Positions 7,540 to 59,567 of a stretch of 64,000 nucleotides of DNA are shown here, in pieces. The stretch is from NCBI GenBank assembly GCA_903821875.1, contig CAIJMU010000097.1:1-64000 (forward strand). The letters run 5' to 3'. Source of the DNA: an uncultured Spirochaetota bacterium. Its GTDB lineage: Bacteria; Spirochaetota; Spirochaetia; Treponematales; Rectinemataceae. Both the position numbers and the translations under genes were made by a program. How positions within the stretch are numbered: position 1 is the stretch's first letter; the number at the start of each line of letters is the position of its first letter. The notes under the pieces are model-generated. The model was given only the letters and a program-made list of their open reading frames with translations. It was not told the DNA's origin and ran no database searches.

Positions 7540-10500
7540 TTGAAAATACGGCAAGGCAGCAACCTGATAACGCTGATCATATCGGTCTTCGCGGTCGTCA
7601 CGCTGGCTTCCATCATCAGCTCGTCCCTCCTCCTCGAGGCGCGCCGCTCCTCCTTCCTCATGCTCCTGGGCCTCAACGAAGCTGCCGGGCTCCTGCAGAG
7701 GGGCAGCGAGTCGCTTCGCAAGGACGCAGAGGCCTACGTCACCACCGGGGAACGGCGCTACCGTGACAGCTTCGAACACGAGTACCTCCAGGGGAAAAGC
7801 CGCGAGGAAGCGGTCCAGTCCCTCGTCAGGCTCGGGCTGACAGCCGGGGAGCGCAATCTCGTCGAGCAGATCAAGCACTACTCCGACAGCCTCGTCGACA
7901 CCCTGGTTTCCGCCATGGACCTCCGGGAGAGGGGAGACCTGGCAGGATCGGTCGGTCTGGTCTTCGGCGAACCGGCCCTCGGCTACGCAGACAGCATCGA
8001 CAGGGGTGGGAGCGCCTTGCAGGCAAGCCTGCGCACGCGGCTCGACACCCGGATCGCCGGCCTGACCTCGGCCTCCTTCCTCCAATCACTCATCTCCGGC
8101 CTTGCCGTCGTAGTGAACCTCCTGGCGATCCTGGCGGCCTTCCGTGTCTTCTACCGGCGGAAGCTCATAGATCCCATCGTCGACCTCACCGACAGGACGC
8201 TGGCCCTCCTCAAGGGAGACCACGGGCTGCGTTACGGGCACCTGGGGGAGCAATCGGAGATCGGGGACCTGGCGCGTGCGCTCGAGGACTACCGCAGGAT
8301 GGGCGAGGAGATCGAAAGGCAGCGTTGGGTCAAGCAGGGCCTGTCGGAGATCTCCGAGGCGCTCCAGCACATCGACTCCTTCGGGGGCTTCGGCGATGTG
8401 CTGCTCTCGGGACTGGCTCCCCTCCTCCGAGCGGGCCGGGGAAACTTCTACATGCGCGACGGACACGGGGACGAATTCCGCTGCGTGGGAGGCTACGGAC
8501 GCGATCCTGCAAGCGAGATCCAGTTCGCCCTCGGCCAGGGCATCCTCGGCCAGGCGGCCAAGGACGGGGGCACGATCATCCTGAAGGACATCCCGGCCGA
8601 CTACCTGGGCATAGGAACCGGGCTCGGGTCGGCGATGGCCACGGCGATCGTCATAATTCCCATCATCGGGAAGGAGAAGGTTCTGGCGGTCGTCGAGCTG
8701 GCCACCTTCACCGACTTCGACGGGAGGACCGGCGCGCTCATCGGGGAGGTGTCCACGACCTTCTCGCCGCGCCTGGAGCTTCTCATGGGAGCGCTCAAGA
8801 CGGAGGAACTCCTGGCCTGGAGCCAGGAGCAGTCGCGCTCGCTCGAGGACCAGGCGGCCGAGCTGGCCGTGCAGCAGGAGAGCATCCGGGCCGGCGGCGA
8901 GGACCTCCTGAAGGAGAAGGCCCGCCTCCAGGAAATCATCGACACCTCGCCGATCGGCTTTGTCATCTCCGTGGACGGCATCATCCGCATGGTCAATCCG
9001 GCCTTCGAGGCCATGATCGGCGTCGGGCAGGACACGGACATGATCGACATCTACGTCGACCCCCAGGACAGCGACATGATCCTCGACGCGCTCAACGTCC
9101 ACGGGATCATGCGCAATTTCGAACTCAGGCTCTTCGGATCCGGGGGCCAGCCCAAGGAATTCCTGGCAACCTACATGCTTTCGCAGTGGGAGGGCGAACA
9201 GGCCGTCCTGGTCTGGCTCATCGACATCACCGAGCGCAAGCGCATAGAGCTCCAGGTGGAGATGGAGCGGGCGCGCTTCAACCATATCCTCGAGACGGCA
9301 CCCGTCGGCGTGGGCATCAGCGTCGGTGGCATCATGCGCTTCGTGAACCCTCGCCTCGCCCACCTCATCGTCGCGGAGGTCGGCAGATCCGTGGATGACC
9401 GCTACGTGGATCCCACCGAGGCAGCGAAGGTCGCCGGCTCCGTCTACGAGGGCCAGATGCTCAAGGACTACGAGCTGCAGATGTACGATCGCAGGCAGAA
9501 TCCCCGGAATCTCCTGGCTACCTACATGGCAATGGACTGGGAGGGCGAACCCGCCATCCTCGGCTGGCTGATCGACATCACCCGGAGCAAGCAGGCCGAG
9601 CGTGAACTCGCGGCCGCGAAGGAGGTTGCCGAGGAGGCGACGAGGATGAAATCGGATTTCCTGGCCAACATGAGCCACGAGATACGAACGCCGATGAACG
9701 CCATCATCGGGATGTCACACCTGGCGATGAAGACCGAGATGTCGCCGAAGCAGCGCGACTACCTCCGCAAGATCCAGGCTTCCAGCCAGCACCTCCTGGG
9801 CATCATCAACGACATACTGGACTTCTCCAAGATCGAGGCCGGAAAGCTCACAATTGAGAACATCGACTTCGAGCTCGAGAAGGTCCTCGACAATGTCGCC
9901 ACCCTCATCGGCGACAAGGCCGGCGCAAAGGGCCTCGAACTGGTCTTCGACGTGGCCGGGGACGTCCCGAACCATCTTATGGGCGATCCGCTCCGCGTCG
10001 GGCAGATCCTCATCAATTACGCGAACAACGCGGTGAAGTTCACGGAGTCCGGCGAGATCGACATCAAGATCGCCCTTGCCTCCGAAGACGACGAAGGAGT
10101 CATGCTGCGCTTCGAGGTCCGCGACACCGGCATCGGGCTCACACCCGAGCAGTGCACCCTCCTCTTCCAGAGCTTCCAGCAGGCCGACACCTCGACCACG
10201 CGGAAATTCGGGGGCACCGGGCTCGGCCTGGCGATCTCCAAGCGCCTGGCCACCCTCATGGCGGGCGATGTCGGCGTGGACAGTGAATTCGGCAAGGGTT
10301 CGACCTTCTGGTTTACGGCACGCCTGGGCAAGGGTGTCGAAAGGGGAAGCAGGCTGATGCCCGCCGCGGATCTCAGGGGCAGACGCATGCTGGTCGTGGA
10401 CGACAACCAGACGGCACGCGCCGTGCTCGTGCACCTTCTTTCGGCCATGACCTTCCAGGTCGGCGACTCTGCCTCCGGCGCGGAGGCCATCATCGAGGTG

Positions 10501-11883
10501 GCGCGTGCAGCCCGGGCCGGGGAGCCCTATGAGATCGTCTTCCTCGACTGGCAGATGCCCGGCATGGACGGCATCGAGGCAGGTCGGAGGATCAAGGCCC
10601 TCGGCCTCGAACCGCCTCCGCACCTGGTGATGATCACTGCCTATGGGCGGGAAGAGGTCATGCAGCAGACCCTGGAGTCGGGCTTTGACAGCATCCTCAT
10701 CAAGCCCGTCAACCAATCACTCTTGTTCGACACGAGCATGCAGGTGCTCGGTCATCCCGACGCTGCCAGGCAAGCCGGAACGAATCCCCTTTCAGCGCCG
10801 GTAGAACTCATCTCGGCGCTGAGCGGTGCCCGCGTGCTTCTGGTCGAGGACAACGAGCTCAACCAGGAAGTTGCGGCAGGGCTCCTCGGAGAGGTCGGCG
10901 TCCTGGTGGAATTCGCGGGGAACGGCGAGATCGCGCTGCAAAAAGTCAAGAAAGGGAAATACGACGCCGTTCTGATGGACATGCAGATGCCGGTTATGGA
11001 CGGCATCACTGCCACGATAGAGATCCGGAAGGATCCATCCTTCGCAGGATTACCCATAATTGCGATGACCGCCAGCGCGCAGCAGGTCGACCGCGATCGC
11101 TGCCTAGCCGCCGGGATGAACGACCACGTGGTCAAGCCGATCGACCCCGACGAGCTCTTCTCGCGGCTCCGGCACTGGATCGGCAGCCGTCCAGGAAGGA
11201 AGCCCGGCGAAGCCGCTGCCCCCCCTCTGCCTCCGCAGCCGGATCCGGCCAGGGAGGGCGCCTCTACATGGCTTCCCGAAGACATCCCCGGAGTGGACAT
11301 GAAGCTGGGTCTCGGCCGCGTCCTTGGCAAGAGGAAGGCCTATGTAGCAATGCTGCGCAAATTCGCCTCGGGGCAGAAGGAAACCAGCGGAGCGCTCGAC
11401 GCGGCGATCGGGGTCGGGAACATGGCCGATGCCGAGCGCCTCGCGCACACCCTCAAGGCAGTCTCGGGGAACATCGGCGCGACAGGACTGCAGAAGGAGG
11501 CGGAGAGGCTCGAGACCGCGATCCGTGCGCAGGAAAATGCGCTCTCGGTCGAAGAGCGGAAGGCCGCCGTGGACGACAGGCTCATCCCCCTCATCGACGC
11601 CCTCGACAGCTTCTTTCCGGTGGAATCGGGCGTCACCGCTGTCGGGGCGGAACAGGCAGGCAGGCGCGAGGAGGTCCTCGCGAAGCTCTCGGCCCTCCTT
11701 GCGGACAATGACGCTTCGGCCACCGACTTCGTGGAGGCCGAAGCCGCCTTCCTCTCAGCCTCCCTGGGAAGTGCCTTCACCAGGCTGGGCAGCCTCGTGC
11801 GGAACTTCGATTTCGAGGCTGCCCTTGCCGCCATCGCCAGGCTGTCCGAAGACCAGGGCAGCGGGGCGGAAAGCAGGCCATGA
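7540..11883 (+). CDS. Hybrid sensor histidine kinase (HAMP-GAF-PAS-PAS-HisKA-HATPase-REC-REC-HPt)
   Basis: I chose the TTG at 7540 because GGGAGG lies about 7 nt upstream and the product then begins LKIRQGSNLITLIISVFAVV, directly giving the first membrane helix. The 1447-residue protein has two membrane helices (about 8-32 and 185-208) around a periplasmic helical sensor, then HAMP, a GAF domain (about 270-400), a coiled coil, and two similar PAS domains that each repeat a FLATYM/NLLATYM...WLIDIT pattern. HisKA follows with FLANMSHEIRTPMNA (His713), then HATPase (about 820-940), two receivers (D1003 and D1147) and an HPt with LAHTLKAVSG (His1303). All phosphorelay residues are present. Its stop overlaps the cyclase start in ATGA, so the receiver-cyclase is a likely output partner. 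Confidence 0.9.
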   Translation: MKIRQGSNLITLIISVFAVVTLASIISSSLLLEARRSSFLMLLGLNEAAGLLQRGSESLRKDAEAYVTTGERRYRDSFEHEYLQGKSREEAVQSLVRLGLTAGERNLVEQIKHYSDSLVDTLVSAMDLRERGDLAGSVGLVFGEPALGYADSIDRGGSALQASLRTRLDTRIAGLTSASFLQSLISGLAVVVNLLAILAAFRVFYRRKLIDPIVDLTDRTLALLKGDHGLRYGHLGEQSEIGDLARALEDYRRMGEEIERQRWVKQGLSEISEALQHIDSFGGFGDVLLSGLAPLLRAGRGNFYMRDGHGDEFRCVGGYGRDPASEIQFALGQGILGQAAKDGGTIILKDIPADYLGIGTGLGSAMATAIVIIPIIGKEKVLAVVELATFTDFDGRTGALIGEVSTTFSPRLELLMGALKTEELLAWSQEQSRSLEDQAAELAVQQESIRAGGEDLLKEKARLQEIIDTSPIGFVISVDGIIRMVNPAFEAMIGVGQDTDMIDIYVDPQDSDMILDALNVHGIMRNFELRLFGSGGQPKEFLATYMLSQWEGEQAVLVWLIDITERKRIELQVEMERARFNHILETAPVGVGISVGGIMRFVNPRLAHLIVAEVGRSVDDRYVDPTEAAKVAGSVYEGQMLKDYELQMYDRRQNPRNLLATYMAMDWEGEPAILGWLIDITRSKQAERELAAAKEVAEEATRMKSDFLANMSHEIRTPMNAIIGMSHLAMKTEMSPKQRDYLRKIQASSQHLLGIINDILDFSKIEAGKLTIENIDFELEKVLDNVATLIGDKAGAKGLELVFDVAGDVPNHLMGDPLRVGQILINYANNAVKFTESGEIDIKIALASEDDEGVMLRFEVRDTGIGLTPEQCTLLFQSFQQADTSTTRKFGGTGLGLAISKRLATLMAGDVGVDSEFGKGSTFWFTARLGKGVERGSRLMPAADLRGRRMLVVDDNQTARAVLVHLLSAMTFQVGDSASGAEAIIEVARAARAGEPYEIVFLDWQMPGMDGIEAGRRIKALGLEPPPHLVMITAYGREEVMQQTLESGFDSILIKPVNQSLLFDTSMQVLGHPDAARQAGTNPLSAPVELISALSGARVLLVEDNELNQEVAAGLLGEVGVLVEFAGNGEIALQKVKKGKYDAVLMDMQMPVMDGITATIEIRKDPSFAGLPIIAMTASAQQVDRDRCLAAGMNDHVVKPIDPDELFSRLRHWIGSRPGRKPGEAAAPPLPPQPDPAREGASTWLPEDIPGVDMKLGLGRVLGKRKAYVAMLRKFASGQKETSGALDAAIGVGNMADAERLAHTLKAVSGNIGATGLQKEAERLETAIRAQENALSVEERKAAVDDRLIPLIDALDSFFPVESGVTAVGAEQAGRREEVLAKLSALLADNDASATDFVEAEAAFLSASLGSAFTRLGSLVRNFDFEAALAAIARLSEDQGSGAESRP

Positions 11884-12971
11884 ATATACCAATTATGAAT
11901 ACAAAGCCCGAAGTGCCCCAGGCTGCGAAGATAGTGCTCGTCGTGGACGACAGCCCGGACAACATCATGGTGCTCAAGGAAGTGCTCGGATCGGAATTCG
12001 CCATCCGCGTCGCGACCTCGGGACCCAAGGCGCTGGAGATCTGCCACGGCGCCGTGAAGCCTGACATCATCCTCCTCGACATCATGATGCCCGGGATGGA
12101 CGGCTACGAGGTCTGCGCCAGGCTCAAGGCCGACGCGGAAACCGCCGGCATCCCGGTGATCTTCGTAACTGCGATGACCGACGAGCAGGACGAGGCGAAG
12201 GGGCTGGGGATGGGTGCCATCGACTACATCACCAAGCCCATCAGCCCGACGATCGTGATACAGCGCGTGAGGAACCACCTGGAACTCCGGGCTGCCCGCC
12301 TCGCCCTCGAGGGCCTGAGCCGGCATTATTCCTCCTACCTCTCGCCCGAACTGGTCGAGGGCATCAGGGCGGGCTCGATCGCCGGCAAGATCGGAGCGCA
12401 GCGGAAAGAGCTCACGGTGATGTTCTCCGACATCGAGGACTTCACCCCGAAATCCGAGCGCCTGGGCCCTGAAGCCCTCACCCTGGCCCTGAACAGCTAC
12501 TTCGAGGCAATGGCCCGCATCGTGGCCAAGCACCGGGGTACCCTCGACAAATTCATAGGCGATTCGGTCATGGTCTTCTTCGGAGACCCCGAGAGCCAGG
12601 GCCTCAGAGAGGACGCGGTCGCCTGCGTAGCCATGGCCCTGGAAATGCAGGCCCAGATCCCCCTGGTCGTGGAGGGCTGGAAGAGGCTTGGCATCGAGGA
12701 GTCGCTGGGCATCCGCATCGGGATGGCAACCGGCCCCTGCACGGTCGGCAATTTCGGCTCGAGTTCCCAGCTTACCTACACGATCTTCGGGAGCACCGTC
12801 AACCTCGCATCGCGGCTGGAGTCGAGCGGGGGTCCGGGAAAAATAGTCGTGTCCGAACGGACCTGGGAGCTGATCGGCGCTGACTTCACGGGACGGGCGC
12901 TGGCTCCGCTTTCGCTCAAGGGCATGGCCCAGCCGACGAGCGCCTACGAGATTCTGGGGGCCAAGGGCTGA
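11880..12971 (+). CDS. Response regulator with class III adenylate cyclase domain
   Basis: The 363-residue protein has a receiver domain (acidic pair D23/D24, phospho-acceptor D67 in IILLDIMMPGMDGYE, Lys119), a linker helix, and a class III nucleotide cyclase domain (about 170-345). The metal-binding aspartates are D184 (VMFSDIEDFT) and D228 (KFIGDSVM). K224 and T301 occupy the base-recognising positions, the Lys/Thr pair seen in bacterial adenylate cyclases, and N308 and R312 (VNLASR) fill the transition-state positions. All catalytic residues are present, so ATP-to-cAMP activity is predicted. The start overlaps the hybrid kinase stop (ATGA), making phosphorelay control of cAMP synthesis the obvious hypothesis. 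Guanylate cyclase activity is less likely on these residues. Confidence 0.9.
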   Translation: MNIPIMNTKPEVPQAAKIVLVVDDSPDNIMVLKEVLGSEFAIRVATSGPKALEICHGAVKPDIILLDIMMPGMDGYEVCARLKADAETAGIPVIFVTAMTDEQDEAKGLGMGAIDYITKPISPTIVIQRVRNHLELRAARLALEGLSRHYSSYLSPELVEGIRAGSIAGKIGAQRKELTVMFSDIEDFTPKSERLGPEALTLALNSYFEAMARIVAKHRGTLDKFIGDSVMVFFGDPESQGLREDAVACVAMALEMQAQIPLVVEGWKRLGIEESLGIRIGMATGPCTVGNFGSSSQLTYTIFGSTVNLASRLESSGGPGKIVVSERTWELIGADFTGRALAPLSLKGMAQPTSAYEILGAKG

Positions 12972-12990
12972 GAGAGGGAAGCAAACCATT

Positions 12991-13027
12991 GATGTCTTGA
13001 CATCTTACTTATTTGTGCCATGATGTC
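12991..13027 (+). promoter_or_regulatory. vapB promoter with palindromic candidate operator
   Basis: GATGTC at 12991-12996 and GACATC at 12999-13004 form a perfect 6-bp inverted repeat with a 2-nt centre, and a third GATGTC lies at 13022-13027. The palindrome overlaps a perfect TTGACA -35 box (12997-13002). A CATGAT -10-like box at 13019-13024 (spacer 16) ends 6 nt before the vapB ATG. Autorepression by the VapBC complex is expected for this family. The operator assignment is inference from symmetry and position. Confidence 0.55.
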
Positions 13028-13030
13028 AGT

Positions 13031-13285
13031 ATGAGATCCACACTGACCATCGAGGACGATACCGATCAGCGCGTCCGGAAGCTCGCGGAAAGCGAGCACT
13101 GCTCCTACAAGGAGGCAGTCAACCTCGTGCTTGCCCGGGGCCTTGAGGCGCTTTCGGTTGCAGAGTCTCCCCCCCGCTACAGCGTGAGGGCCTTCGATGC
13201 CGGCTTCCAGCCCGGTATCGACCTCGGGAAGCTCAACGAGCTCGCCGACGGCGAGCTTGCCGACGGCAGCGGGGACGAGGCGTGA
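13031..13285 (+). CDS. VapB-type ribbon-helix-helix antitoxin
   Basis: The 84-residue protein begins MRSTLTIEDDTDQRVRKLAE, a ribbon-helix-helix DNA-binding strand, followed by two helices (YKEAVNLVLARGLEAL). Its C-terminal tail (about 50-84) is the expected toxin-neutralising part. I start it at the ATG at 13031. An in-frame GTG-type start at 13013 would lie inside the promoter/operator elements. There is no Shine-Dalgarno, consistent with a leaderless transcript. Its stop overlaps the toxin start (GTGA), the usual coupled order. The RHH fold is recognised from the N-terminal pattern; partner specificity is inferred from adjacency. Confidence 0.85.
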   Translation: MRSTLTIEDDTDQRVRKLAESEHCSYKEAVNLVLARGLEALSVAESPPRYSVRAFDAGFQPGIDLGKLNELADGELADGSGDEA

Positions 13286-13710
13286 TCCTTCCCGACCTCA
13301 ACCTCGTCGTCTCCGCCTATAATACTGCCTCACCCTGGTATGAGCGCGCCCGGCTTTGGTGGGAGGACAGCCTCAACGGCCCTGAAATCGTGGGGCTGGC
13401 TCCTGTTGTCGCCCTTGGTTTTGTCCGCCTCCTGTCCAATCCCAAGGTGGTGGTCCGTCCCGTAAGTCCCGCCATCCTCCTCGATGTTGTCGCAGAATGG
13501 CTCGATACGGGGCGGGTTAAATATATCGTGCCAGGACTGCGCCATGTGCGGATCATGCGCGGGCTCTTCGAGGCAAGCGCTGCAGGCTCTTCGATGACGA
13601 CTGACATCCACCTCGCGGCCCTCGCCATCGAGCAGGGAGCGACCATGGCCAGCAGCGACAGCGATTTTCGGAGGCTCTCGGGCTTCAGGCTCGTAAATCC
13701 GCTTGAGTGA
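13282..13710 (+). CDS. VapC-type PIN-domain ribonuclease toxin
   Basis: The 142-residue PIN-domain protein starts at a GTG that overlaps the antitoxin stop. It shows the PIN acidic residues: D5 in ILPDLNLVVSAYN, an Asp in MTTDIHLAALAIEQGA, and the SSDSDFRRL motif near the C-terminus. VapC toxins cleave RNA, often tRNA, when not bound by VapB. The AIEQGATMASSDSDF pattern places it with the TA_VapC_Mycobact-like PIN subgroup. The gene looks intact. Its 3' end overlaps the convergent solute-binding gene by 26 bp, with no terminator between them. Confidence 0.88.
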   Translation: MILPDLNLVVSAYNTASPWYERARLWWEDSLNGPEIVGLAPVVALGFVRLLSNPKVVVRPVSPAILLDVVAEWLDTGRVKYIVPGLRHVRIMRGLFEASAAGSSMTTDIHLAALAIEQGATMASSDSDFRRLSGFRLVNPLE

Positions 13711-14440
13711 GGCCCCGGAGGCCCAGGCGCGCGATGCAGGTGCCAAGGAAGCCTGAAGCCTTGATGTCAGCGACAAAGGCCTCGAGAGCCTCGCCGACTG
13801 AAGCGTCGCGGGCAGCCGGTACCGCCATAGCCTGCTCGATAACCATAAAGCGCCCAGGCAGGAGCCGGAGGAGGGGCCTGCCCGCTGCGTCGCGCAGCTT
13901 CCCGCTGTCAGCCTCGAGCTGCTGCCGCACGCCGGCAGCCACCTCGTAGCCCCCTTCGAGGAAGGTCGCGACCACTTCTGGAGAGCTGGGCGCGCGCACG
14001 AGTTCCGCGCTTTTGATCGTCCTGCTCAGGAAGAGGTCGTAGGCGCTGCCCTTGCCCACCACGATGCGCCTTCCCCCACGATCGACCTCGTCGTTGGACA
14101 GGATGGGCGAATCCGATCGTACTAGATAGGAACCTTCGATGAGCACATAAGGCCTGCTGAAGCGCAGTCCGGCTCCACGCTCCGGGTCGACAGCGAAAAA
14201 GCCTAGGTCCGCACGACCCTCGCGGACCGCCTCCACCGAAGCGGCGGCCCCTTCGAAGCAGACGAATTCGAGGCCGAGGCCCAGGCGGGCGGCCAGTTCG
14301 CCCGCGAGTTCCACCGACAGTCCCTTGGGTGGGGCACCCTCCTGTCCCCGCTGCGCCAGAAGGGGATTTCCCAAATTGATCGAGGCCCTAAGCGTCCCGC
14401 CGGGAGCGAAGGCCCTCGCAAGGGTCGCATCGATGGTCAT
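13685..14440 (-). CDS. Solute-binding (SBP_bac_3-like) protein without signal peptide
   Basis: The 251-residue product has the family 3 periplasmic binding fold: LRASINLGNPLLAQ, then GLSVELAGELAARLGLGLEF, GRADLGFFAVDPERGAGLRF and a hinge with YVLIEGSYLVRSDSPI. Unlike most relatives it has no signal peptide or lipobox, starting MTIDATLARAFAPGGTL. Its ATG overlaps the tctA stop (ATGA), so it is the last gene of the tct operon. It may be a cytoplasmic ligand-binding or sensing accessory, or it may have lost its export signal. The frame is open well upstream, but that part is inside tctA. No alternative start supplies a hydrophobic leader. Confidence 0.75.
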   Translation of the reverse strand: MTIDATLARAFAPGGTLRASINLGNPLLAQRGQEGAPPKGLSVELAGELAARLGLGLEFVCFEGAAASVEAVREGRADLGFFAVDPERGAGLRFSRPYVLIEGSYLVRSDSPILSNDEVDRGGRRIVVGKGSAYDLFLSRTIKSAELVRAPSSPEVVATFLEGGYEVAAGVRQQLEADSGKLRDAAGRPLLRLLPGRFMVIEQAMAVPAARDASVGEALEAFVADIKASGFLGTCIARLGLRGLTQADLRA

Positions 14441-15966
14441 AGTGCCTTCTTTCCCCTTCCCGAGAGGGCCCGGAACCCCATCGGGATGTACTTCCAGTAG
14501 GGATTCGTGATCGAGGCAAAGGCGAGAATCATGAAAAAGCAGGCGATGGGACGGTTGAAGAAGATGGCGATGCTTCCATCGGAGATGATGAGGGACTGGC
14601 GCATCTTTTCTTCCATCATCTTGCCGAGGACCATGCCCAGGATGACCGGGGCGGCCGGGATGTCGGCCTTCTTGAAGCCGAAGCCGATGAGGCCGAAGAC
14701 GATCATGATGAAGAGGTCCTCCACCGCGTTGTTGGCCGTGAATACGCCCATGAAGGAGAACAGCACTATGAACATCGTCAGGAGGTACTGGGGTATGTCC
14801 AGGAGCTTTACCCACATGCCGACCAGGGGGAGGTTGAGCACGAGGAGCATTACGTTGCCGATATACATCGAGGCGATGAGGCCCCAGACGAATTCGGGCT
14901 GGGCGGTGAACAACATCGGCCCGGGCTGGAGCCCCAGCATGATGAGGGCGCCGAGCATGATGGCCGTCGTGCCCGAACCGGGGATGCCGAGGCAGAGGAG
15001 GTGGATGAGGGAACCGCCGGCAGCCGCGTTGTTGGCCGCCTCGGGGGCAGTGACTCCCTCGATGATGCCGGTACCGAGGAGGGCACGCCGCCTCGCCACC
15101 TTCTTCTCGAGGCCGTAGGCCACGAAGCTCGCCACAGCCGCACCTGCGCCCGCGACGCCCCCGACAAAGAAGCCGGAGATCGTCCCGCGCCCGCAGGATG
15201 GCCAGAAGTGCTTCCAGTCCTCCCGGGTGAGCATGAGCCCGCCCTTGATCTTGATGAGTTCGACCTTCGTGGCCTTGCTCATCTCGACGAGGTTGACGAA
15301 GACCTCGGTGATGGCAAAGAGACCAATTGCGACGACCAGGAATTCGATGCCATCCATGAAGCGTATGTTGCCGAAGGTAAAGCGGGGGACCGAGGACTGG
15401 AGGTCGATGCCGACCATCGCTATGGCCAGGCCGAAGAGCGTAGCCAGGAGGGCCTTCACGATGGAGCGGCCGGCGAGGCTGGTAACGACCGTGAGTCCCG
15501 CCACCATGAGGGCGAAGAATTCCGGTGGCCCGAATCTCAGGGCAATCTGCGCGATCAGGGGCCCGAAGAGCATCAGCATGATGGTGGCAAAGGTACCGGC
15601 TATGAAGGAAGCGATGGCCGCCGCCGCGAGGGCGGGACCGGCGCGCCCGTTCTTGGCCATCCTGTTTCCGTCGATGCAGGTGACGACCGAGGAGGACTCG
15701 CCGGGAGTGTTGACGAGGATCGAGGTGGTGGAACCACCGTACATGGCCCCGTAGTAGATGCCCGCCATCAGGATGATGGCCGAGGTCGGGGGCATGCTGA
15801 GGCTGAAGGCCAGGGGAATCAAAAGGGCTATGCCCGTCATCGGCCCGATGCCGGGAAGCACCCCGATGATGGTTCCCATGAACACGCCGACAAAGGCCAA
15901 AAGGAGGTTGATCGGAGTGCCAGCGACTCCGAAACCGAGGGCGACATTGTGGAAGAAATAATCCAT
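14437..15966 (-). CDS. tctA: Tripartite tricarboxylate transporter large membrane subunit
   Basis: This 509-residue polytopic protein has the TctA pattern: an N-terminal VGVFMGTIIGVLPGIGP repeat, NTPGESSSVVTCIDG, a central SGFFVGGVAGAGAAVASFVA, and a second LGIPGSGTTAIMLGALIML repeat. About 11-12 membrane helices are expected. With TctB and the periplasmic TctC it forms a secondary, ion-driven uptake system for citrate-like or other carboxylates; the substrate cannot be read from sequence. It lies 13 nt after tctB and overlaps the following solute-binding gene by ATGA. Confidence 0.93.
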   Translation of the reverse strand: MDYFFHNVALGFGVAGTPINLLLAFVGVFMGTIIGVLPGIGPMTGIALLIPLAFSLSMPPTSAIILMAGIYYGAMYGGSTTSILVNTPGESSSVVTCIDGNRMAKNGRAGPALAAAAIASFIAGTFATIMLMLFGPLIAQIALRFGPPEFFALMVAGLTVVTSLAGRSIVKALLATLFGLAIAMVGIDLQSSVPRFTFGNIRFMDGIEFLVVAIGLFAITEVFVNLVEMSKATKVELIKIKGGLMLTREDWKHFWPSCGRGTISGFFVGGVAGAGAAVASFVAYGLEKKVARRRALLGTGIIEGVTAPEAANNAAAGGSLIHLLCLGIPGSGTTAIMLGALIMLGLQPGPMLFTAQPEFVWGLIASMYIGNVMLLVLNLPLVGMWVKLLDIPQYLLTMFIVLFSFMGVFTANNAVEDLFIMIVFGLIGFGFKKADIPAAPVILGMVLGKMMEEKMRQSLIISDGSIAIFFNRPIACFFMILAFASITNPYWKYIPMGFRALSGRGKKAL

Positions 15967-15979
15967 GTTCCGTTCCTTC

Positions 15980-16483
15980 CTAGAACCCGAGAAGGGTCAG
16001 GGGCCCCTTCGGCAGGTCGACGCGGAGTAACAGGCTGAAGGCGAAGTAGATGCCGAAGCTGCCCACGAGGGAAATGATGACATCACGGAGGATGTGGCGC
16101 CGGTCGAGGATCAGGATGCCCGCCATCAGCGCGAGGAAGGTGGAGATCGCGAAGCCCAGGGGCACAAAGAGGAGGGCATAGGCCACCATGTCCAAAAGGA
16201 CCAGGCCCATCAGCTTGAAGTTGGCCTTGTCCTCGAGCTTCTCCTCGGCTCCGATCATCTCGGCGCGCTTTTCGTCATCCTTGATCTTCCCGAGGAAGGC
16301 CTGGAAGAGGTAGATGATCGAAAGTCCGGTCATGAGGAAGCCTATGGCCTTCGGGAAGCCGTCGGGGCCGAGCTGCTGTCTGTAGATGGGCTTGTGGATG
16401 TCGAAGGCAGCCATGAGGAAGGCTACGGAAAACAGGGCGACAAGGACGCTCGCGATCCGGTCTTCTCGCTTGGAGGTGGCCAT
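15980..16483 (-). CDS. tctB: Tripartite tricarboxylate transporter small membrane subunit
   Basis: This 167-residue protein has four predicted membrane helices (VLVALFSVAFLMAAF, IGFLMTGLSIIYLFQAFL, MGLVLLDMVAYALLFVPLGF, VIISLVGSFGIYFAFSLLL). Size and place between tctC and tctA identify it as TctB, the poorly conserved small subunit. AAGGAG at 16491-16496 precedes the ATG by 7 nt. That Shine-Dalgarno begins 1 nt after the T-tract of a terminator hairpin lying between tctC and tctB, so transcription into tctBA is probably only partial. Confidence 0.88.
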   Translation of the reverse strand: MATSKREDRIASVLVALFSVAFLMAAFDIHKPIYRQQLGPDGFPKAIGFLMTGLSIIYLFQAFLGKIKDDEKRAEMIGAEEKLEDKANFKLMGLVLLDMVAYALLFVPLGFAISTFLALMAGILILDRRHILRDVIISLVGSFGIYFAFSLLLRVDLPKGPLTLLGF

Positions 16484-16497
16484 GGGGATGCTCCTTG

Positions 16498-16541
16498 AAA
16501 AAAGCCGGCGACTCGGGCGCCTAACGCGCCCCGCCGCCGGC
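16498..16541 (-). terminator. Intrinsic terminator/attenuator between tctC and tctB
   Basis: On the minus strand a GC-rich stem (GCCGGC outer arms, GGGCGC/GCGCCC inner arms, TTAG-type loop) is followed by six T residues (16498-16503). The tctB Shine-Dalgarno starts 1 nt beyond the T-tract. Partial termination here would give more TctC than TctAB, which suits a binding-protein system. Confidence 0.8.
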
Positions 16542-16562
16542 CTGGCTTCGGGAAGGCTTCTC

Positions 16563-17546
16563 TTACTTGCTGATGAGTCCGACCTTGACCATGATGTCCT
16601 TGAAGGTCAGGTAATCGGCGTCGAGGAACTTGGCGAAATCAGCCTGGGCCATGTAGCCGTCGCTCCAGACGTTCTTCTCCAGCTGATCCTTCCAGGTGGC
16701 GGTGGTGACCATCTTCTTGAAGGTGGCGGCCCACCAGGCCTGGGCTTCCTTGGACATTCCGGGTGCTGCGAACATGCCGCGCCAGACATCGAAGGTCACA
16801 TTGACTCCAGCGGCTTCCTTGACGGTCGGGACATCCTTGAAGGCGCCCGGTCGGCGGACGCCGGCGGAGATGCCCAGGACGCGGACTGTGCCAGCCTCGA
16901 GCTGACCCTTGACGGTACCGGTGTCGGTGGAGAGGAAGGCAACATTGCCGCCCAGGAGGGTGGTCATGGCCTCGCCGCCGCCTGAGAAGGCGACGTAGAT
17001 GAGCCTGGAGGGATCGATCCCGTAGGCCTGGGCGATCTTGAGGAATGAAAGATGGTCCATAGAACCGGGGCTGGAACCGCCGGCGAACTTGTAGGTGCCA
17101 GGATCCTTCTTGAGGGCGTCGAGCAGTTCCTTGAGGTTCTTGAAGGGCGAGTCAGCCTTGACTACCACACACTCGTAGTCGGTCGTGAGCATGGCCAGGG
17201 GAAGGATGTCCTTGTAGGAACCCTGGAGGGTTGTGTCGATGGTCTTGATGAGGAGGGGCGGGGAGAAGGGGAGGATAAAGTAGTCGTTCTTGGCCTGGGA
17301 GAGGGTGTAGATAAAGCCGACCGTGCCACCGCCGCCTTCCTTGTTCGTCACGGCCATGGGCTGGGGATAGAGCTTCTCCTTCTCGAGCGTCACGTTGACG
17401 GCGCGGGCGAGGGCGTCCCAGCCGGAACCTGGCTTGTTGGACACCATGATCTCGAGGGGCTTCGAGGGGTAGGGGGCCGCCGCGATGGGGGCGGCAACCG
17501 TAAGGGCAAGGGCGATTCCTGCGATGGCGACGAGGGTCTTCTTCAT
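16563..17546 (-). CDS. tctC: Tripartite tricarboxylate transporter substrate-binding protein
   Basis: The ATG at 17546 gives 327 residues with a clear Sec signal peptide ([20 protein letters not shown]) cleaved after AA near residue 24. Mature features of the TctC/Bug family are [31 protein letters not shown] and [16 protein letters not shown]. The frame extends upstream to 17744 but lacks a Shine-Dalgarno there, whereas GGAGAGC precedes 17546. It is the first gene of the operon and is separated from tctBA by a terminator hairpin. The periplasmic protein captures the carboxylate and delivers it to TctAB. Confidence 0.93.
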
Positions 17547-17684
17547 CTGCTCTCCTTGTAGGGCTCCGGACAGGAACCCTGATTGTAGGCGCAGTGTGAA
17601 CCCATCCCTCCGATCCGTATGTAGGAAGGCTGTTGAAAGTGCTGTAAGCCTCTGTCCTACACGGCTCCCATCGGCGGTTTTCCT

Positions 17685-17713
17685 TGGACAGAGGGGAGAA
17701 GCGACACTAGACT
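17685..17713 (+). promoter_or_regulatory. Aconitase promoter
   Basis: TGGACA (17685-17690, five of six to the -35 consensus) and TAGACT (17708-17713) are spaced by 17 nt. They leave a leader of about 70 nt before the ATG at 17791, which has a good AAGGAG. The 244-nt gap is the divergent control region of tctC and acnA; on the tctC side a TACAAT is visible but no good -35. Confidence 0.55.
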
Positions 17714-17790
17714 GTGGCCGCGCCGCGAGGATCACTCGATTCACCGCGCCCCCCGGGCCCCGGCGGCGGAATTACTTTCAAGGAGCAACT

Positions 17791-20472
<2,682 letters not shown>

Positions 20473-20498
20473 TTGTCGCAATTGGCAATGAAGGGAGG

Positions 20499-20530
20499 GC
20501 AACCCGGCTCTTAGGCTCCGGGTTGCTTTT
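20499..20530 (+). terminator. Terminator after acnA
   Basis: GCAACCCGG (20499-20507) pairs with CCGGGTTGC (20518-20526), followed by TTTT. It overlaps the last codons of the convergent histidine kinase gene. Confidence 0.8.
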
Positions 20531-21969
20531 GGCCCTGGCTGCCCACCGGGGCGGCCGGAATCCTGACCGTGAATGCAGATCCACCCAATTGTGATGACCC
20601 GACTGCGATATCCCCCCCGTGGGCCTTCGCTATCTCGAGGGCGATAGCCAGCCCCAGGCCTCGCCCGCCGGTCTCCCGCGAGCGAGAGCGGTCGAGGCGG
20701 TAGAAGCGCTCGAAGATGCGCTCGCGCTCGGCTTCGGGAATGCCGGGGCCCGAGTCCTCCACGGTGATGGAAAAGCCCCCCGGCGCTGCCCTCGCGGGCA
20801 ACTCCGATCTCGACCGTGCCCCCGCGCGGCGTATATTTGACAGCATTGGAAACGAGATTGTGCACGATCTCCCCGAGCCGGAGTGCATCGCCCCGCGCCT
20901 CGGGGACCACTTCTCCACCTGAGCAGACCGAGATGTCCCGGTCCCTCGCCTGCTGTGCGAAGAGGGCTGCCGCCCTTCCCGCGATGGCCAGGGGGTCGAT
21001 GCTCTGGGCTTCGATCAACAGTTCACCGGAATCGATGGCCTCGAGCTCGCTGAGCATGTCGATGAGGAGGGACAATCGCATCGTCTCCTCGTGCACCGAT
21101 TCGAGGTTCTCGCGGTCGCTGGGAAAGACCCCGTCGATCATGGCCTCGACTGCGCCCCGGATCAGCGTGACGGGCGTGCGCAGCTCGTGGGCCGAGTCGG
21201 CGATGATGCGGCGGCGACAGTCCTCGAGGCGCGCAAGTTCCGCAGTCATGCGGTTGAAGGCGACAGCAAGGGCCGCAATCTCGTCCCTTCCCTTGGCGAC
21301 GACAGTCGCTTTGAGGTCGCCGGCTGCGACTCGGGCAGCAGCTCCGGAGAGCGTGGCCAGACGCGCGGTGATCCTCCGCGAGATCGCGATTCCCAGGATC
21401 AGTGCAAGTCCGGCCGACACCAGTGTGGCGACGACGAGGGCACTGCTGAAGGCCGAAAGGAAGCGGGAACCGACATCACCCAGCGAGGAGTCCACCATAG
21501 AGCCTACGAGGACAGTCCCGACGCGTTTCCAGTCCGCCATTACCGGGACGCCCTGCATGAGGTGGCGCTCAGGGTGGAGGGAACCCAGGAGGGAACCGGC
21601 GGTATCGGCGACCACCCTGCCCTCGGCATCGGCTACCACGATGCGGTCGGCCAGGATTTTCCCGAAGGTGTCGAAGGAAAAGGATGCCACGAGCTTGTCC
21701 CGCGAATCGTCGTAGAGCCCCCGGGCCAGGCCCTCATACATCACACGCGGAAGACCCGCCAGCCAGGGCTGGATACCCTCCCAATTGGGATGTTCCGAGC
21801 GCCAGTCCCCGAGGATGGTGGCGTAGGCCCCGGCCTTGGCCCTGTCCCCTTCCAGCACCCAGCTGCGGAAGGCACCCTCCGTCGAGGCGCCGAGCATCGC
21901 CGCAGTCGAGGCCGCAAAGAGGGCGATTACCGCGATGAAGGCGAGGGCCAGACGGTTAGCGAGGCGCAT
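20511..21969 (-). pseudogene. Sensor histidine kinase with a single-base frameshift
   Basis: The N-terminal frame encodes two membrane helices (about 5-27 and 175-197) around a periplasmic region, HAMP, and HisKA with RIIADSAHELRTPVTLI (His261), up to the N-box VHNLVSNAVKYTPRGGTVEI. At a run of six G residues (plus-strand C run at 20776-20781) the frame is lost. The rest of the HATPase (FSITVEDSGPGIPEAERERI and GGRGLGLAIALEIAKAHGG) lies in the next frame and ends at 20511. Removing one G restores a normal kinase of about 485 residues. It overlaps the upstream OmpR-type regulator by 14 bp. Assembly error, phase variation or a real mutation are all possible; everything else looks intact. Confidence 0.85.
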
Positions 21970-22660
21970 CGCCGGAGTCGATAAAGCGGTAGCCGACGCC
22001 CCGGACCGTCCCGATAAAACGAGGCTCTCCCGAATCGTCGCCGAGGGCCTTGCGTATGTTTTTCACGTGGGCGTCGACGGTGCGCTCGTAGCCCTCGAAG
22101 TCGCTGCCCGAGGCTGCTTCGAGGATGGCGAGGCGGGGAAAGACACGGCCGGGTGAGCGCGCCAGAAGGAGGAGGATGTCGAACTGCGCAGTAGTGAGAA
22201 CCTTCTGAATGCCGTCGATCCTTAGCTCGCGCCGGGCTACATCCATGGTAAGGCCGCCACGGCGAAGCGTCTCTTCGGAGCTGGCCTCCTCCTTCGGGGG
22301 CGAGCGCCTGAGCACGGCGCGCACACGGGACACCAGTTCGCGGGGGCTGAAGGGCTTGGCTACATAGTCGTCAGCCCCCAGTTCGAGGCCGACTATCGTG
22401 TCAGCCTCGGAGGCCTGGGCGGTCAGGAAGATGATGGGCGTCGAGGATTCCTTCCGTATCGACCGCGCTACCTCAAGTCCGTCGAGACCGGGCATGTTGA
22501 TGTCCAGGATCACGCAGTCCGGCTTCCCTTCGCGGAAAAGCGCCAAGGCAGTCTGCCCCTCGTGGGCGACCAGCGTCTCGAAGCCCGAGTTATGGAGGTA
22601 GCTCGCGACAATTGAGGTAAGTTTTTCCTCGTCGTCCGCGATGAGGACCAGTGCCGCCAT
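21956..22660 (-). CDS. OmpR-family response regulator
   Basis: The 234-residue product has a receiver domain (D9/D10, phospho-acceptor D53 in CVILDINMPG, Lys102) and a C-terminal winged-helix domain (about 135-228, with RVFPRLAILEAASG and YERTVDAHVKNIRKAL). It is the partner of the kinase downstream, whose start lies 14 bp inside this gene. The pair is divergent from the envelope genes to the right and convergent with acnA. Target genes are unknown. If the kinase frameshift is real, this regulator may be an orphan or respond to another kinase. Confidence 0.93.
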   Translation of the reverse strand: MAALVLIADDEEKLTSIVASYLHNSGFETLVAHEGQTALALFREGKPDCVILDINMPGLDGLEVARSIRKESSTPIIFLTAQASEADTIVGLELGADDYVAKPFSPRELVSRVRAVLRRSPPKEEASSEETLRRGGLTMDVARRELRIDGIQKVLTTAQFDILLLLARSPGRVFPRLAILEAASGSDFEGYERTVDAHVKNIRKALGDDSGEPRFIGTVRGVGYRFIDSGDAPR

Positions 22661-22764
22661 TCAAGCCTCCGATTACGAAGATACTCGAGACTGGCCCTGC
22701 CGCCAACGACCGCCAACGCAGACCCACAGGCTCGGCGCGACTTGGGGGCCGGGCCAGCAGGCCC

Positions 22765-23616
22765 CTATGGCCCCGGGCAGGCTTCCTCCACGCGCCAGAC
22801 CTCATCTCCGTCCCGGGGATCGATACCCGGCCGCGTGAGCGCAAAGTCGTATTTTACCGGGTCGCGCGGCGCGTAGAGGCGAAAGGCCTCCGTCGCGCGG
22901 AGGGCATTGGCCAGGGTGGCTGCCGGGCCCGGGATAAATCCGAGCCTCGCGGAGCATACCCGCGCCATGTGGACATCGATGGGGATCACCAGGCGCGAGC
23001 GGCTGATGCCCGTCCATCCTCCCGGATCGACGACGTCGCGGCGCACCATCCAGCGCAGGTAGAGGAAGAGTCTCTTGCAGGCAGAGCCGCGAGCGGGATC
23101 GGGCAAAAGCCCCTCGCGAAGGGGCCCGCCCAGGCCCCTGAGGCGCCGGGAGAACTCCCCGACAGCAGCAACTATGTCCTTCCCTCCGGGGTCCCCCTCA
23201 GCGAACATCGCCCCGAGGCCGCCGAACTGGGCGCGGGCGCGCTTTATCCCAAGCATGAGGGCAACCATGTCGGGACCATGCATGAAGCGATACTGGAAAT
23301 CTCCCCAGAGCCTCCGTATCGAAGCGTCTTTCAGGGCGTCGAGGGCCGTTGCCGGTCGCTCTCCGAGGGGCTCCATCGCCTGTCGGACTGCGCGCATGAT
23401 GAGGTCTACCTGCCCGAAGGCCAGGGTCGAGGCCACAAGTCCGGCTAACTCCCTGTCCGCGAGCTCTCCGAAGGGTCGCACCAGGGCGAGGGGGTCGCGG
23501 TCGAGCCTCGCGAGGCCGCTGCAACTGCGATGGATCCCATCAAGATATGCGGCGATGGCGGGATCATGGACAGGAGGGGGAGCTGCGTTGCGTCCGCCAC
23601 GGACGGGCTGGCTCAC
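22765..23616 (-). CDS. TIGR02757 (DUF2400) family protein
   Basis: With the GTG at 23616, which overlaps the stop of the TPR lipoprotein gene (GTGA), the product is 283 residues. It shows DPLALVRPFGELADRELAGL, ASTLAFGQVDLIMRAVRQAM, DFQYRFMHGPDMVALM, CKRLFLYLRWMVRRDVVDPG and IDVHMARVCSARLGF, the conserved blocks of TIGR02757 proteins. They are found in Bacteroidetes, spirochaetes and others; their function is unknown, though the fold resembles helix-hairpin-helix DNA glycosylases. It is the last gene of a three-gene minus-strand unit. The open frame continues upstream to 24021 but only inside the TPR gene. Confidence 0.8.
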   Translation of the reverse strand: MSQPVRGGRNAAPPPVHDPAIAAYLDGIHRSCSGLARLDRDPLALVRPFGELADRELAGLVASTLAFGQVDLIMRAVRQAMEPLGERPATALDALKDASIRRLWGDFQYRFMHGPDMVALMLGIKRARAQFGGLGAMFAEGDPGGKDIVAAVGEFSRRLRGLGGPLREGLLPDPARGSACKRLFLYLRWMVRRDVVDPGGWTGISRSRLVIPIDVHMARVCSARLGFIPGPAATLANALRATEAFRLYAPRDPVKYDFALTRPGIDPRDGDEVWRVEEACPGP

Positions 23617-25526
23617 GGGGCGACTTCGGCCAGGTCGCGGGAGCGTCGGATGATCTCGGGATCGGCGGGCGCGAGGGCCAGGGCCTGCTTGAGGTAGAAG
23701 CGGGACTTCTGCCAGTCCTGGCGGCGAAACCAGATATCGTACATCGCCAGAAGGGCGTCTACATTGTCCGCGTTTTCGACCAAGGCAGTGCGGAGCGAGG
23801 CGAGGGCAGACTCCTCGGTCTTGGAAAGGAGGCTCTGGGTATAGTGAAGACTCGAACGTCCGGCTGTCGTGCCGGGCTGGAGGAGGAGGCGGGGAAGGAG
23901 ATCCTCCGCTGCCTTGGTGTTGCCCGAACCAATGAGAGCGCGAAGGTAGGCATCGGCCGCAGCCTCGGAAGAAGGGTTTAGTCGGTACCATTCCGAGGCA
24001 TGGTCGAGGGCACGGCCCCACTCCCCCGACCTTCGGAGCACAAGACAGACCAGGGCCTCGTTCGAAAAGCCTGGCGCGTCATGGGCGCGCTCGACATAGC
24101 GCGATGCACTGATCCAGTCGAAGCGGAGGGCCGACTCCTCAAGGAGGAGCCGCGCAGCCTCTCCCCCCGCACCCTTCCATCCACCGAGTCGAAGGGGCGA
24201 GAGGAGCTCTGGCACCGTGGCACCGGCAGCCGTCAGGTCAAAGGCCGAGCGGGCGAGTTCCCGTCCCTCGCTGAGAGCCGCGGCCTTTGCCTCCGCGGAA
24301 AGCCCCTGCTGTCCGAAAAGTACGCGGGCAGTCAGCGTGAGGAATTCCGGATCGCCGGGGAAGGCTTCCATGCCCTTCCGTGACCAGCGCAGGGCTTCGT
24401 CGCGGTTGCGGAGGCCCTCCGAGCTTAAGGCGCGCAGAAGCACATAGGTACGATCATTGAGGTCGACTGTCGCAAAGGCGTCGAGGAGGGGGAGGGCCTG
24501 CTGGTACTGCTTCGCGCGCACCAGGAGGTGGGCACGCATGAGGATGAGCTTGGAATCGAGGGGATCGTTTCGAAGTGCCTGGGCGACAAGGGGATCAGCC
24601 TTGTCGAAGACGCCGTTCTCGTAGAGGGCCTCCGCCCGTATCTTGTTGAAGTCGCTGTCGTTCTGGATGTCCTCCGGCGTCCTGGAAATCAGCTCGAGAG
24701 CCTCGGAAGGTTTGCCAAGGGCGAGGTAGTCCTTGGTGGCACCGATCACCGAGGGCCAGGCGTCGGAGGCTGCATCCACCGAAACGAGATAGAAGGCGAG
24801 ACTCTCCGTCCAGGCCTTGCGGCGCTCGGCGTCGAGTCCTCGTATCATCGCAGGGAGCACAGATTTCGCCCCGAGGTGCTCGAAGCGGTCGAGGGCCGCG
24901 AGGGCGAGCCGCGCGGTGTCATGCGAGTCTGAACGAAATACCGAGAGCGCGGGAAGGATCTCGGCCAGGGGATCGCCAGCATTCTCGGGAGGAAGGGCGG
25001 GAACGCGGCCCGACAGGGCTTCCGAAACCATGCGGGCAATGGCGCCGGAGGGTATGTCTCCGGGAGACTGGAGGTCCTGGGGAACAAAACTTGGCGAACG
25101 CAGTGGATAGACAATGGTCGCCACCCGGGCGCCCACCCAAGCCAAAAGGATGGCCTCGCTGCGGTCCAGGCCCGTCACATTACGGATCAATTCGAAGGCC
25201 CGGGTGAGCGAGGTTGGAGAGCCGAAGGCGATCGCCTCGGAGATGGCCTTCCGCTCGGACTGGGCCTTGCTTGGAGCGGCGACAGTGGCAGTCTGGATGG
25301 CTGTCCCGCCCGTACTACCCGCCACGGGAGAGGACGGGGCGCCAGAAGACGCAGCAGCGGAGCTGCCCCTGGTCTGGCTTCCCCCTGGACTGCCTGGCGA
25401 ATTCGCTGCGCTTCCCTTACCCGCTCCGGCTGGCCCTGAAGCGCAGGATATCAAGACGATCCCGGCAAGCCCGGCAATCGCGCTGCGGGCGAAGGCTCCG
25501 AGACCCCCGGGCCGGGGGCGGATCAT
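23613..25526 (-). CDS. TPR-repeat lipoprotein
   Basis: The ATG at 25526 gives 637 residues with a lipoprotein signal (FARSAIAGLAGIVLISCASG; acylated Cys around residue 28). A low-complexity Gly/Ser/Ala linker (about 30-75) follows, then a long superhelix of tetratricopeptide-like repeats, clearest in the second half (YQQALPLLDAFATVDLNDRT, WQKSRFYLKQALALAPADPE). It is probably anchored to a membrane and acts as an envelope protein-interaction scaffold; the partner is unknown. Its start overlaps the stop of the upstream membrane protein (ATGA) and its stop overlaps the TIGR02757 start. The open frame runs on to 26534, but only as antisense of other genes. Confidence 0.8.
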   Translation of the reverse strand: MIRPRPGGLGAFARSAIAGLAGIVLISCASGPAGAGKGSAANSPGSPGGSQTRGSSAAASSGAPSSPVAGSTGGTAIQTATVAAPSKAQSERKAISEAIAFGSPTSLTRAFELIRNVTGLDRSEAILLAWVGARVATIVYPLRSPSFVPQDLQSPGDIPSGAIARMVSEALSGRVPALPPENAGDPLAEILPALSVFRSDSHDTARLALAALDRFEHLGAKSVLPAMIRGLDAERRKAWTESLAFYLVSVDAASDAWPSVIGATKDYLALGKPSEALELISRTPEDIQNDSDFNKIRAEALYENGVFDKADPLVAQALRNDPLDSKLILMRAHLLVRAKQYQQALPLLDAFATVDLNDRTYVLLRALSSEGLRNRDEALRWSRKGMEAFPGDPEFLTLTARVLFGQQGLSAEAKAAALSEGRELARSAFDLTAAGATVPELLSPLRLGGWKGAGGEAARLLLEESALRFDWISASRYVERAHDAPGFSNEALVCLVLRRSGEWGRALDHASEWYRLNPSSEAAADAYLRALIGSGNTKAAEDLLPRLLLQPGTTAGRSSLHYTQSLLSKTEESALASLRTALVENADNVDALLAMYDIWFRRQDWQKSRFYLKQALALAPADPEIIRRSRDLAEVAP

Positions 25527-26074
25527 GGCGCGGGAGAGCGCCTGCGCGCCGCCGCGCGCCGCGAACGATACCAGAGGGCAGCGAAGATGGCGGCAACCGC
25601 AAGGACTATGAAGGCGGGCCACCAGATCGCCAGGAATTTGGCAAGCCTCATGGTCACGAGGCCGAAGGAAAACAACGAAAAGAAACCGGCCAGGAGGAGC
25701 ATGGCCACAGATGGAACAAAGGTCGCAACGCGAAGCCGGCCGAAACGCGACAGGCCATCGACGATCCAGCCCAGGGCCGCACCCACCATGAAGAGGGGCC
25801 AGGATTGACGGAGTGAAAGCCCAAAGGCGGCAGCTGCCAGCACGGCGCCGGCGAAGATAAAGGTTATTCCCGATCCACGATGGAGGGGAGCCCTGCCCTC
25901 GTTCACCGCCAGGAATAGGAGGACGAGCCCGAAAAGGACAGCCAGCAGTGGAAGAAGCACCCGCAGGTCTGCGAGCATTCCAGAGGCACGCAGCACAATT
26001 CCCGTAGCGATCAGCGCCACGAGGAAGATCGAGGGCAGGATGGCTTCCGTCTTGGCGGTTCGTGGCGGGCGCAT
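25523..26074 (-). CDS. Multi-spanning membrane protein of unknown function
   Basis: This 183-residue, strongly hydrophobic protein has five or six predicted membrane helices (ILPSIFLVALIATGIVL, LLPLLAVLFGLVLLFLAV, ITFIFAGAVLAAAAFGL, WPLFMVGAALGWIVDGL, FVPSVAMLLLAGFFSLF, FLAIWWPAFIVLAVAAIFAA) and an Arg/Ala-rich cytoplasmic tail. I do not recognise the family. It is the first gene of the minus-strand unit shared with the TPR lipoprotein and the TIGR02757 gene, overlapping the former by ATGA. It is divergent from another TPR-like lipoprotein gene. Confidence 0.75.
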   Translation of the reverse strand: MRPPRTAKTEAILPSIFLVALIATGIVLRASGMLADLRVLLPLLAVLFGLVLLFLAVNEGRAPLHRGSGITFIFAGAVLAAAAFGLSLRQSWPLFMVGAALGWIVDGLSRFGRLRVATFVPSVAMLLLAGFFSLFSFGLVTMRLAKFLAIWWPAFIVLAVAAIFAALWYRSRRAAARRRSPAP

Positions 26075-26105
26075 GTTCTATGGATAGTAGCTGAAGCTGC
26101 CGATC

Positions 26106-26151
26106 TTGCCAACTCTCACAATGACATGCTACGCTTTTCCGCATGACATGC
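26106..26151 (+). promoter_or_regulatory. Promoter with two direct repeats, upstream of the lipoprotein gene at 26143
   Basis: TTGCCA (26106-26111) and an extended -10 TGC-TACGCT (hexamer 26130-26135) are spaced by 18 nt. ATGACATGC occurs at 26121-26129 and again at 26143-26151, exactly 22 bp apart (two helical turns), so both copies face the same side of the helix. The second copy covers the first possible start codon. This is a candidate activator or repressor site. Confidence 0.4.
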
Positions 26152-32154: not shown

Positions 32155-32167
32155 GGGAACTCCTTGC

Positions 32168-32194
32168 AAAAAAGGGGCGCCGTCGCAGGCGCCC
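32168..32194 (-). terminator. Terminator/attenuator before galE
   Basis: GGGCGCC (32188-32194) pairs with GGCGCCC (32174-32181 side) around a 6-nt loop, followed on the minus strand by TTTTTT (32168-32173). It ends the pRiA4b-domain gene transcript; the galE Shine-Dalgarno begins a few nt past the T-tract. Confidence 0.8.
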
Positions 32195-32264
32195 TGGTTC
32201 GGAAAAGGAGACTATACCCAAAGGCTGATCCCGTCCATCGGGAAGCCTTGACCTCGCCGGCAAC

Positions 32265-40210: not shown

Positions 40211-40255
40211 AAAAAACGGCCATGGGAAAGCCCTGTGCAGACTACCCCATGGCCG
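40211..40255 (-). terminator. Terminator/attenuator between oppA and oppB
   Basis: CGGCCATGGG (40217-40226) pairs with CCCATGGCCG (40246-40255) across a loop of about 19 nt; six T residues follow on the minus strand (40211-40216). The oppB Shine-Dalgarno (40203-40210) is directly adjacent. Confidence 0.8.
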
Positions 40256-40323
40256 CCGTTCAAAGGTGGCTGCGGCCTTCCTCCCTTCCCCAGGGACAGG
40301 TTCGAAAGGCCGCGTCTCCTCGC

Positions 40324-51142: not shown

Positions 51143-51192
51143 GCCGCCCGAATCGCATAAAGCCCCACCCCTGCCCTTCCGACAATCCATAG

Positions 51193-51227
51193 GAGGCGGA
51201 ATCGCGGAATGCCAGTTCCGCCTCTTT
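51193..51227 (+). terminator. Hairpin between manC and flgF
   Basis: GAGGCGGAA (51193-51201) pairs with TTCCGCCTC (51216-51224), followed by TTT. The flgF Shine-Dalgarno AAGGAG (51231-51236) starts 3 nt later. A short T-tract makes it a weak terminator or attenuator. Confidence 0.5.
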
Positions 51228-51247
51228 CGGAAGGAGCACATGCTGCG

Positions 51248-59520: not shown

Positions 59521-59567
59521 AAAATAGAACTGCCGGCCCATGATCCCCAAGGGATATGCGCCGGCAG
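59521..59567 (-). terminator. Hairpin between metK and add
   Basis: CTGCCGGC (59530-59537) pairs with GCCGGCAG (59560-59567); an inner ATCCC/GGGAT stem lies between. On the minus strand a TTCTATTTT tract follows, and the add Shine-Dalgarno AAGGAAG comes next. The interrupted T-tract suggests incomplete termination. Confidence 0.65.

Follow-up and report, generated by a model that had tools for sequence, protein, structure and literature searches.

In the 64-kb stretch of DNA analysed here (the window), a strong hairpin followed by six T residues separates two genes of one transporter, tctC and tctB, and the Shine-Dalgarno sequence (SD) of tctB begins almost where the T-tract ends. This junction raises the question of whether hairpin, T-tract and SD together form a regulated device, as proposed in the initial annotation, or whether a terminator belonging to the upstream gene happens to lie close to the next start codon.

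Anatomy of the tctC-tctB junction

The three genes concerned are encoded on the minus strand and correspond to the solute-binding protein (tctC, 16563..17546; Pfam PF03401, E 1.4e-27), the small membrane subunit (tctB, 15980..16483; PF07331, E 1e-23) and the large membrane subunit (tctA, 14437..15966; PF01970, E 1e-155) of a tripartite tricarboxylate transporter. According to the ORF coordinates, 79 nt separate tctC from tctB on the same strand and 13 nt separate tctB from tctA. A GC-rich stem-loop of −35.8 kcal/mol (16504..16543, minus strand) starts 19 nt past the tctC stop codon (16565-16563), and the T6 tract (16498..16503) lies directly 3' of the stem. A single C (16497) then precedes the tctB SD, AAGGAG (16491..16496), which is followed by a 7-nt spacer and the ATG at 16483; the last T is thus 14 nt ahead of this start codon. 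The strong stem with T6 between the two genes and the SD 1 nt past the last T had both been described correctly in sequence and position, and all elements lie on the minus strand. Folded as a whole, the 101-nt junction reaches −44.8 kcal/mol (z −2.5), a value equalled by 3 of 200 shuffles. For the pattern T5-N0-8-AAGGAG, 0.03 occurrences are expected in the window and two are present. With a GC-rich stem and then a T-rich tract on the coding strand, located between co-directional genes that, from their Pfam assignments and common strand, belong to one functional unit, the element has the features of an intrinsic terminator internal to an operon. Most likely it is a leaky one.

The surroundings of the operon fit a tricarboxylate substrate in that a divergent aconitase gene (AcnA) is found at 17791-20472 on the plus strand. 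At the other end, a gene with an SBP_bac_3 domain (13685-14440, minus strand) overlaps the end of tctA by 4 nt. TctA itself shares 72-78% identity with proteins from metagenome genomes of Anaerolineae, Syntrophales and Holophagaceae. This similarity suggests that the tctCBA operon (14437-17546, minus strand) has spread horizontally.

The same layout had been reported for four further junctions of the window. The tctC hairpin escaped simple terminator scans that allow no bulges; a bulge-tolerant scan returned four, which we assumed to be the same ones. On the minus strand these are a junction at 32173 between a PRiA4_ORF3 gene and an epimerase gene, the oppA-oppB junction at 40216 (40211..40257; SBP_bac_5 and BPD_transp_1), where hairpin and T6 are directly followed by AAGGA, and a junction at 59526 between metK and an adenosine deaminase gene; on the plus strand a nucleotidyl transferase gene and a flagellar rod gene flank the junction at 51223. 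Judged by these Pfam assignments, only tctC-tctB and oppA-oppB, two of the five, have a binding-protein/permease context. At 32155-32240 (minus strand), CTCCTT immediately ahead of the hairpin is the full complement of the epimerase SD, AAGGAG, whose predicted unpaired probability is 0.01, and a TATAGT box is present just upstream; the hairpin at this junction could be a 5'-leader hairpin. At 51143-51262 (plus strand), the T-tract and SD TTTCGGAAGG pair with CCTTCCGA upstream of the hairpin, giving a longer stem.

Terminators behind binding-protein genes and in relatives

Terminators were counted in 1.36 Mb of the host draft genome (4.68 Mb, 193 contigs), in which co-directional gaps of 30-600 nt, 308 in all, were delimited by genes and starts called with a simple script. 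For most of contigs C1-C62, the beginning of the contig was used regardless of matches, and five long contigs (C16, C56, C114, C115 and C146) were known beforehand from a pattern match, which introduces a mild bias. Strict hairpin-plus-T terminators were present in 39 of the 308 gaps in sense direction, compared to 8 of 308 in antisense direction and 7-10 in dinucleotide shuffles. They are therefore strand-specific and beyond chance, and terminators of this kind are real in this genome. The plain T5-AAGGA pattern was discarded as a measure of enrichment: as judged by eye, most of its 74 raw matches genome-wide have no hairpin and many represent in-frame F-K-E/D codons, so that taken alone the pattern is misleading.

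The position of these terminators was related to gene function by considering all gaps of at least 30 nt from a binding-protein gene (SBP_bac_5, SBP_bac_1 and Peripla_BP_6 families, and tctC) to the next gene. A strict terminator was found in 16 of 26 such gaps, oppA included, and in 28 of the 274 co-directional gaps behind other genes (Fisher p 6e-9). Restricting the comparison to gaps of 60-130 nt gave the same picture (14 of 20 against 9 of 118, p 4e-9), and compact hairpins of −18 kcal/mol or better occurred in 22 of 25 binding-protein gaps and 114 of 286 background gaps. Where a binding-protein gap contains a strict terminator, the hairpin starts at a median of 19 nt past the stop codon (IQR 15.5-20.75), whereas the T-tract lies at a variable distance from the next start (IQR 18-44). 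Because the first distance is fixed and the second is not, we attribute the hairpin to the end of the binding-protein gene; the SD comes near it when the gap is short. The oppA-oppB hairpin of the window, 66 nt past the oppA stop, differs from this usual spacing. The enrichment thus supports one part of the earlier proposal, namely a setting of high binding-protein and low permease expression, but not its other part, in which coupling to the SD serves as the device.

A similar picture was obtained across relatives. A search of the genome-contig collection with tctC gave no match, and one with tctA gave named relatives; those nearest to the host draft genome include one Spirochaetaceae genome from a metagenome. 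Across the host and its relatives at genus, family and order level, a hairpin better than shuffles (p 0.01-0.04) is present in each of the 17 tctC-tctB gaps of at least 30 nt. A strict terminator is present in 10 of the 17, and the fused spacing, defined by a T-tract ending 8-20 nt ahead of the start, in five, three of them from one genus. In other phyla, at loci with tctA 72-88% identical, most tctC-tctB gaps also carry a strong hairpin. Of the 18 oppA-oppB junctions scanned with both genes in reach, 17 have a strict terminator, mostly 14-66 nt past the oppA stop and 91-242 nt ahead of oppB, and two are fused. What is conserved is the hairpin or terminator and not its distance to the SD.

Spacing between T-tract and Shine-Dalgarno sequence

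The number of fused junctions in the 1.36 Mb was compared with two null models. Shuffled gaps gave 0-3 against the 7 seen. We preferred the second null, in which the actual terminators are placed uniformly within the actual gaps; here 7.7 fused junctions were expected (P(≥7) 0.70), and 4.6 at binding-protein gaps, where 5 were seen. The count of hairpin, T-tract and SD junctions is thus above that of shuffles but not above that of uniform placement, and the proposal that tight SD coupling represents a regulated device lost its basis in enrichment. At tctC-tctB the gap measures only 79 nt and the hairpin keeps to its customary spacing behind the tctC stop, which places the SD immediately behind the T-tract. 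The adjacency is a consequence of the short gap, arising by chance, and no special device is needed to account for it.

The local cluster in the window is the one positive support for the regulated-device idea. Five of the 7 fused junctions counted lie here, against 1.9 expected, and by the census method only two lie outside. Each of the five strict terminators found in co-directional gaps of the window is fused. Under uniform placement the chance of this is 0.0017, with no correction for the choice of the window on account of this feature; the clustering in 64 kb may reflect that choice. If the fusion were regulated, termination would be altered or the SD freed by ribosomes that finish tctC or by ribosomes or 30S subunits present at the SD. 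Beside the cluster, the predicted folds fit such a control in so far as GGAG of the tctB SD pairs with UUCC of the tctC trailer in the 101-nt fold and is largely paired in a 260-nt fold. Nevertheless, the fused spacing is neither enriched in the genome nor, at two of 18 oppA-oppB and five of 17 tctC-tctB junctions, kept in relatives, and predicted SD accessibility did not differ between fused junctions and 221 others (p 0.53). A regulated fusion is accordingly very improbable. Its more specific form, in which the fusion would tie the downstream translation start to termination, for example through pairing of the SD with CTCCTT (32173), CCTTCC (51223) or UUCC (tctC), ribosomes near the stop codon setting both termination and SD access, has in our view only the slightest chance of being right. 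Such a pairing between the SD and pyrimidines immediately ahead of the hairpin is present at 32173 and 51223 and weak at tctC. Sequestration of the SD as a common feature was rejected, since accessibility is that of the background and 12 of 169 background junctions likewise have an upstream anti-SD match of at least 6 nt.

The suggestion of a ribosome-sensitive attenuator fared no better. No competing antiterminator of similar energy was found at tctC-tctB in a comparison of folding energies: with the 3' arm of the terminator unpaired, the fold reached −71.9 kcal/mol instead of −96.0 kcal/mol and is therefore 24 kcal/mol weaker. Moreover, no Rfam family matched the window at gathering score.

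Probable leaky termination and its alternatives

We consider the following sequence of events for a leaky operon-internal terminator. RNA polymerase leaving tctC would often halt at the hairpin and T6, resulting in an abundant tctC-only mRNA, the 3' end of which is probably also shielded by the hairpin. The fraction reading through would supply tctB and tctA, and the periplasmic binding protein would be made in excess over the membrane subunits. The anatomy, the enrichment behind binding-protein genes and the hairpin kept at this place are observations, and from these, actual termination at tctC-tctB, its efficiency, the protection of the mRNA and the protein ratios are inferred. Since only 14 nt lie between T6 and the tctB ATG, a promoter could not be accommodated there, and expression of tctBA must depend on read-through or on a promoter that lies at the hairpin or further upstream.

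An observation against leaky termination is that 7 of the 17 tctC-tctB hairpins have no terminator-grade T-tract, including that of a relative from the same genus (G001), which has another stem and the weaker tail CATTTTCAGGAG. In lineages of this type the hairpin may act on mRNA stability instead of termination, perhaps as its main role, and a stabilising role beside termination is likely at tctC-tctB itself. It could then be asked whether the hairpin, while causing little termination, serves mainly to keep exonucleases off the 3' end of a processed tctC mRNA. The presence of a hairpin in every related gap of at least 30 nt, with a T-tract in only 10 of 17, points in this direction, and the stabilising REP hairpins of malE-malF provide a precedent. 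However, T6 directly follows the tctC stem, and terminators with a T-tract are themselves enriched at binding-protein gaps and kept at oppA-oppB, which makes protection as the main function unlikely. In the opposite extreme, the hairpin would fully terminate tctC transcription and tctBA would depend on its own promoter inside tctC. T6 behind a long GC stem does resemble the clostridial class with the strongest termination (>90%, for stem-loops carrying more than 5 U; PMC9045158). Yet the stretch from T6 to the SD is too short for a promoter, and a scan of 10000-29000 for sigma-70-like promoters listed none on the minus strand in tctC; full termination is hardly credible. A leaky terminator that probably also stabilises the upstream mRNA therefore remains the preferred reading.

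Comparison with known systems

Hairpins between binding-protein and permease genes are known from the malE-malF intercistronic REP elements of Escherichia coli, which lead to more binding protein. REP elements have no T-tract and act on mRNA decay. The tctC-tctB hairpin likewise separates a binding-protein gene from permease genes; unlike the REP hairpins, it carries a T-tract. With trp-type ribosome-controlled attenuators it shares a terminator hairpin ahead of structural genes. It differs from them in that a full binding-protein gene lies upstream, no leader peptide was identified and no antiterminator fold of comparable stability was found.

The closest parallel is provided by Ruminiclostridium cellulolyticum, where terminators past the binding-protein genes of ABC importers were seen in experiments to stop 21-96% of transcripts and to set the transcript ratio (Wu et al. 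2022, PMC9045158). As in these cellulolytic Clostridia, a stem-loop and U-tract lie between binding-protein and translocator genes, the folding energy is within their range of −10 to −38 kcal/mol, such junctions are common genome-wide and terminators are enriched past binding-protein genes. In contrast, tctCBA encodes a tripartite tricarboxylate transporter and not an ABC importer, the host is related to spirochaetes, the SD lies 1 nt past the T-tract and termination is here a prediction. The oppA-oppB junction at 40216 belongs to an ABC importer in the sense of Wu et al. 2022; as tctCBA does not, we classify its terminator among operon-internal intrinsic terminators in general.

In summary, high binding-protein and low permease expression by means of a leaky internal terminator is well supported, by a mechanism already known in clostridial ABC importers, whereas the novelty claimed for the terminator-SD fusion is not supported. 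The position of the hairpin follows the stop codon of the binding-protein gene, so that the apparent fusion can be understood without a special explanation. For measurements of transporter stoichiometry, the binding-protein junctions listed across the genome provide a test set. Finally, our analysis extends the mechanism known from clostridial importers of the ABC type to a lineage related to spirochaetes, and there both to tripartite tricarboxylate transporters and to further operons with binding-protein genes.
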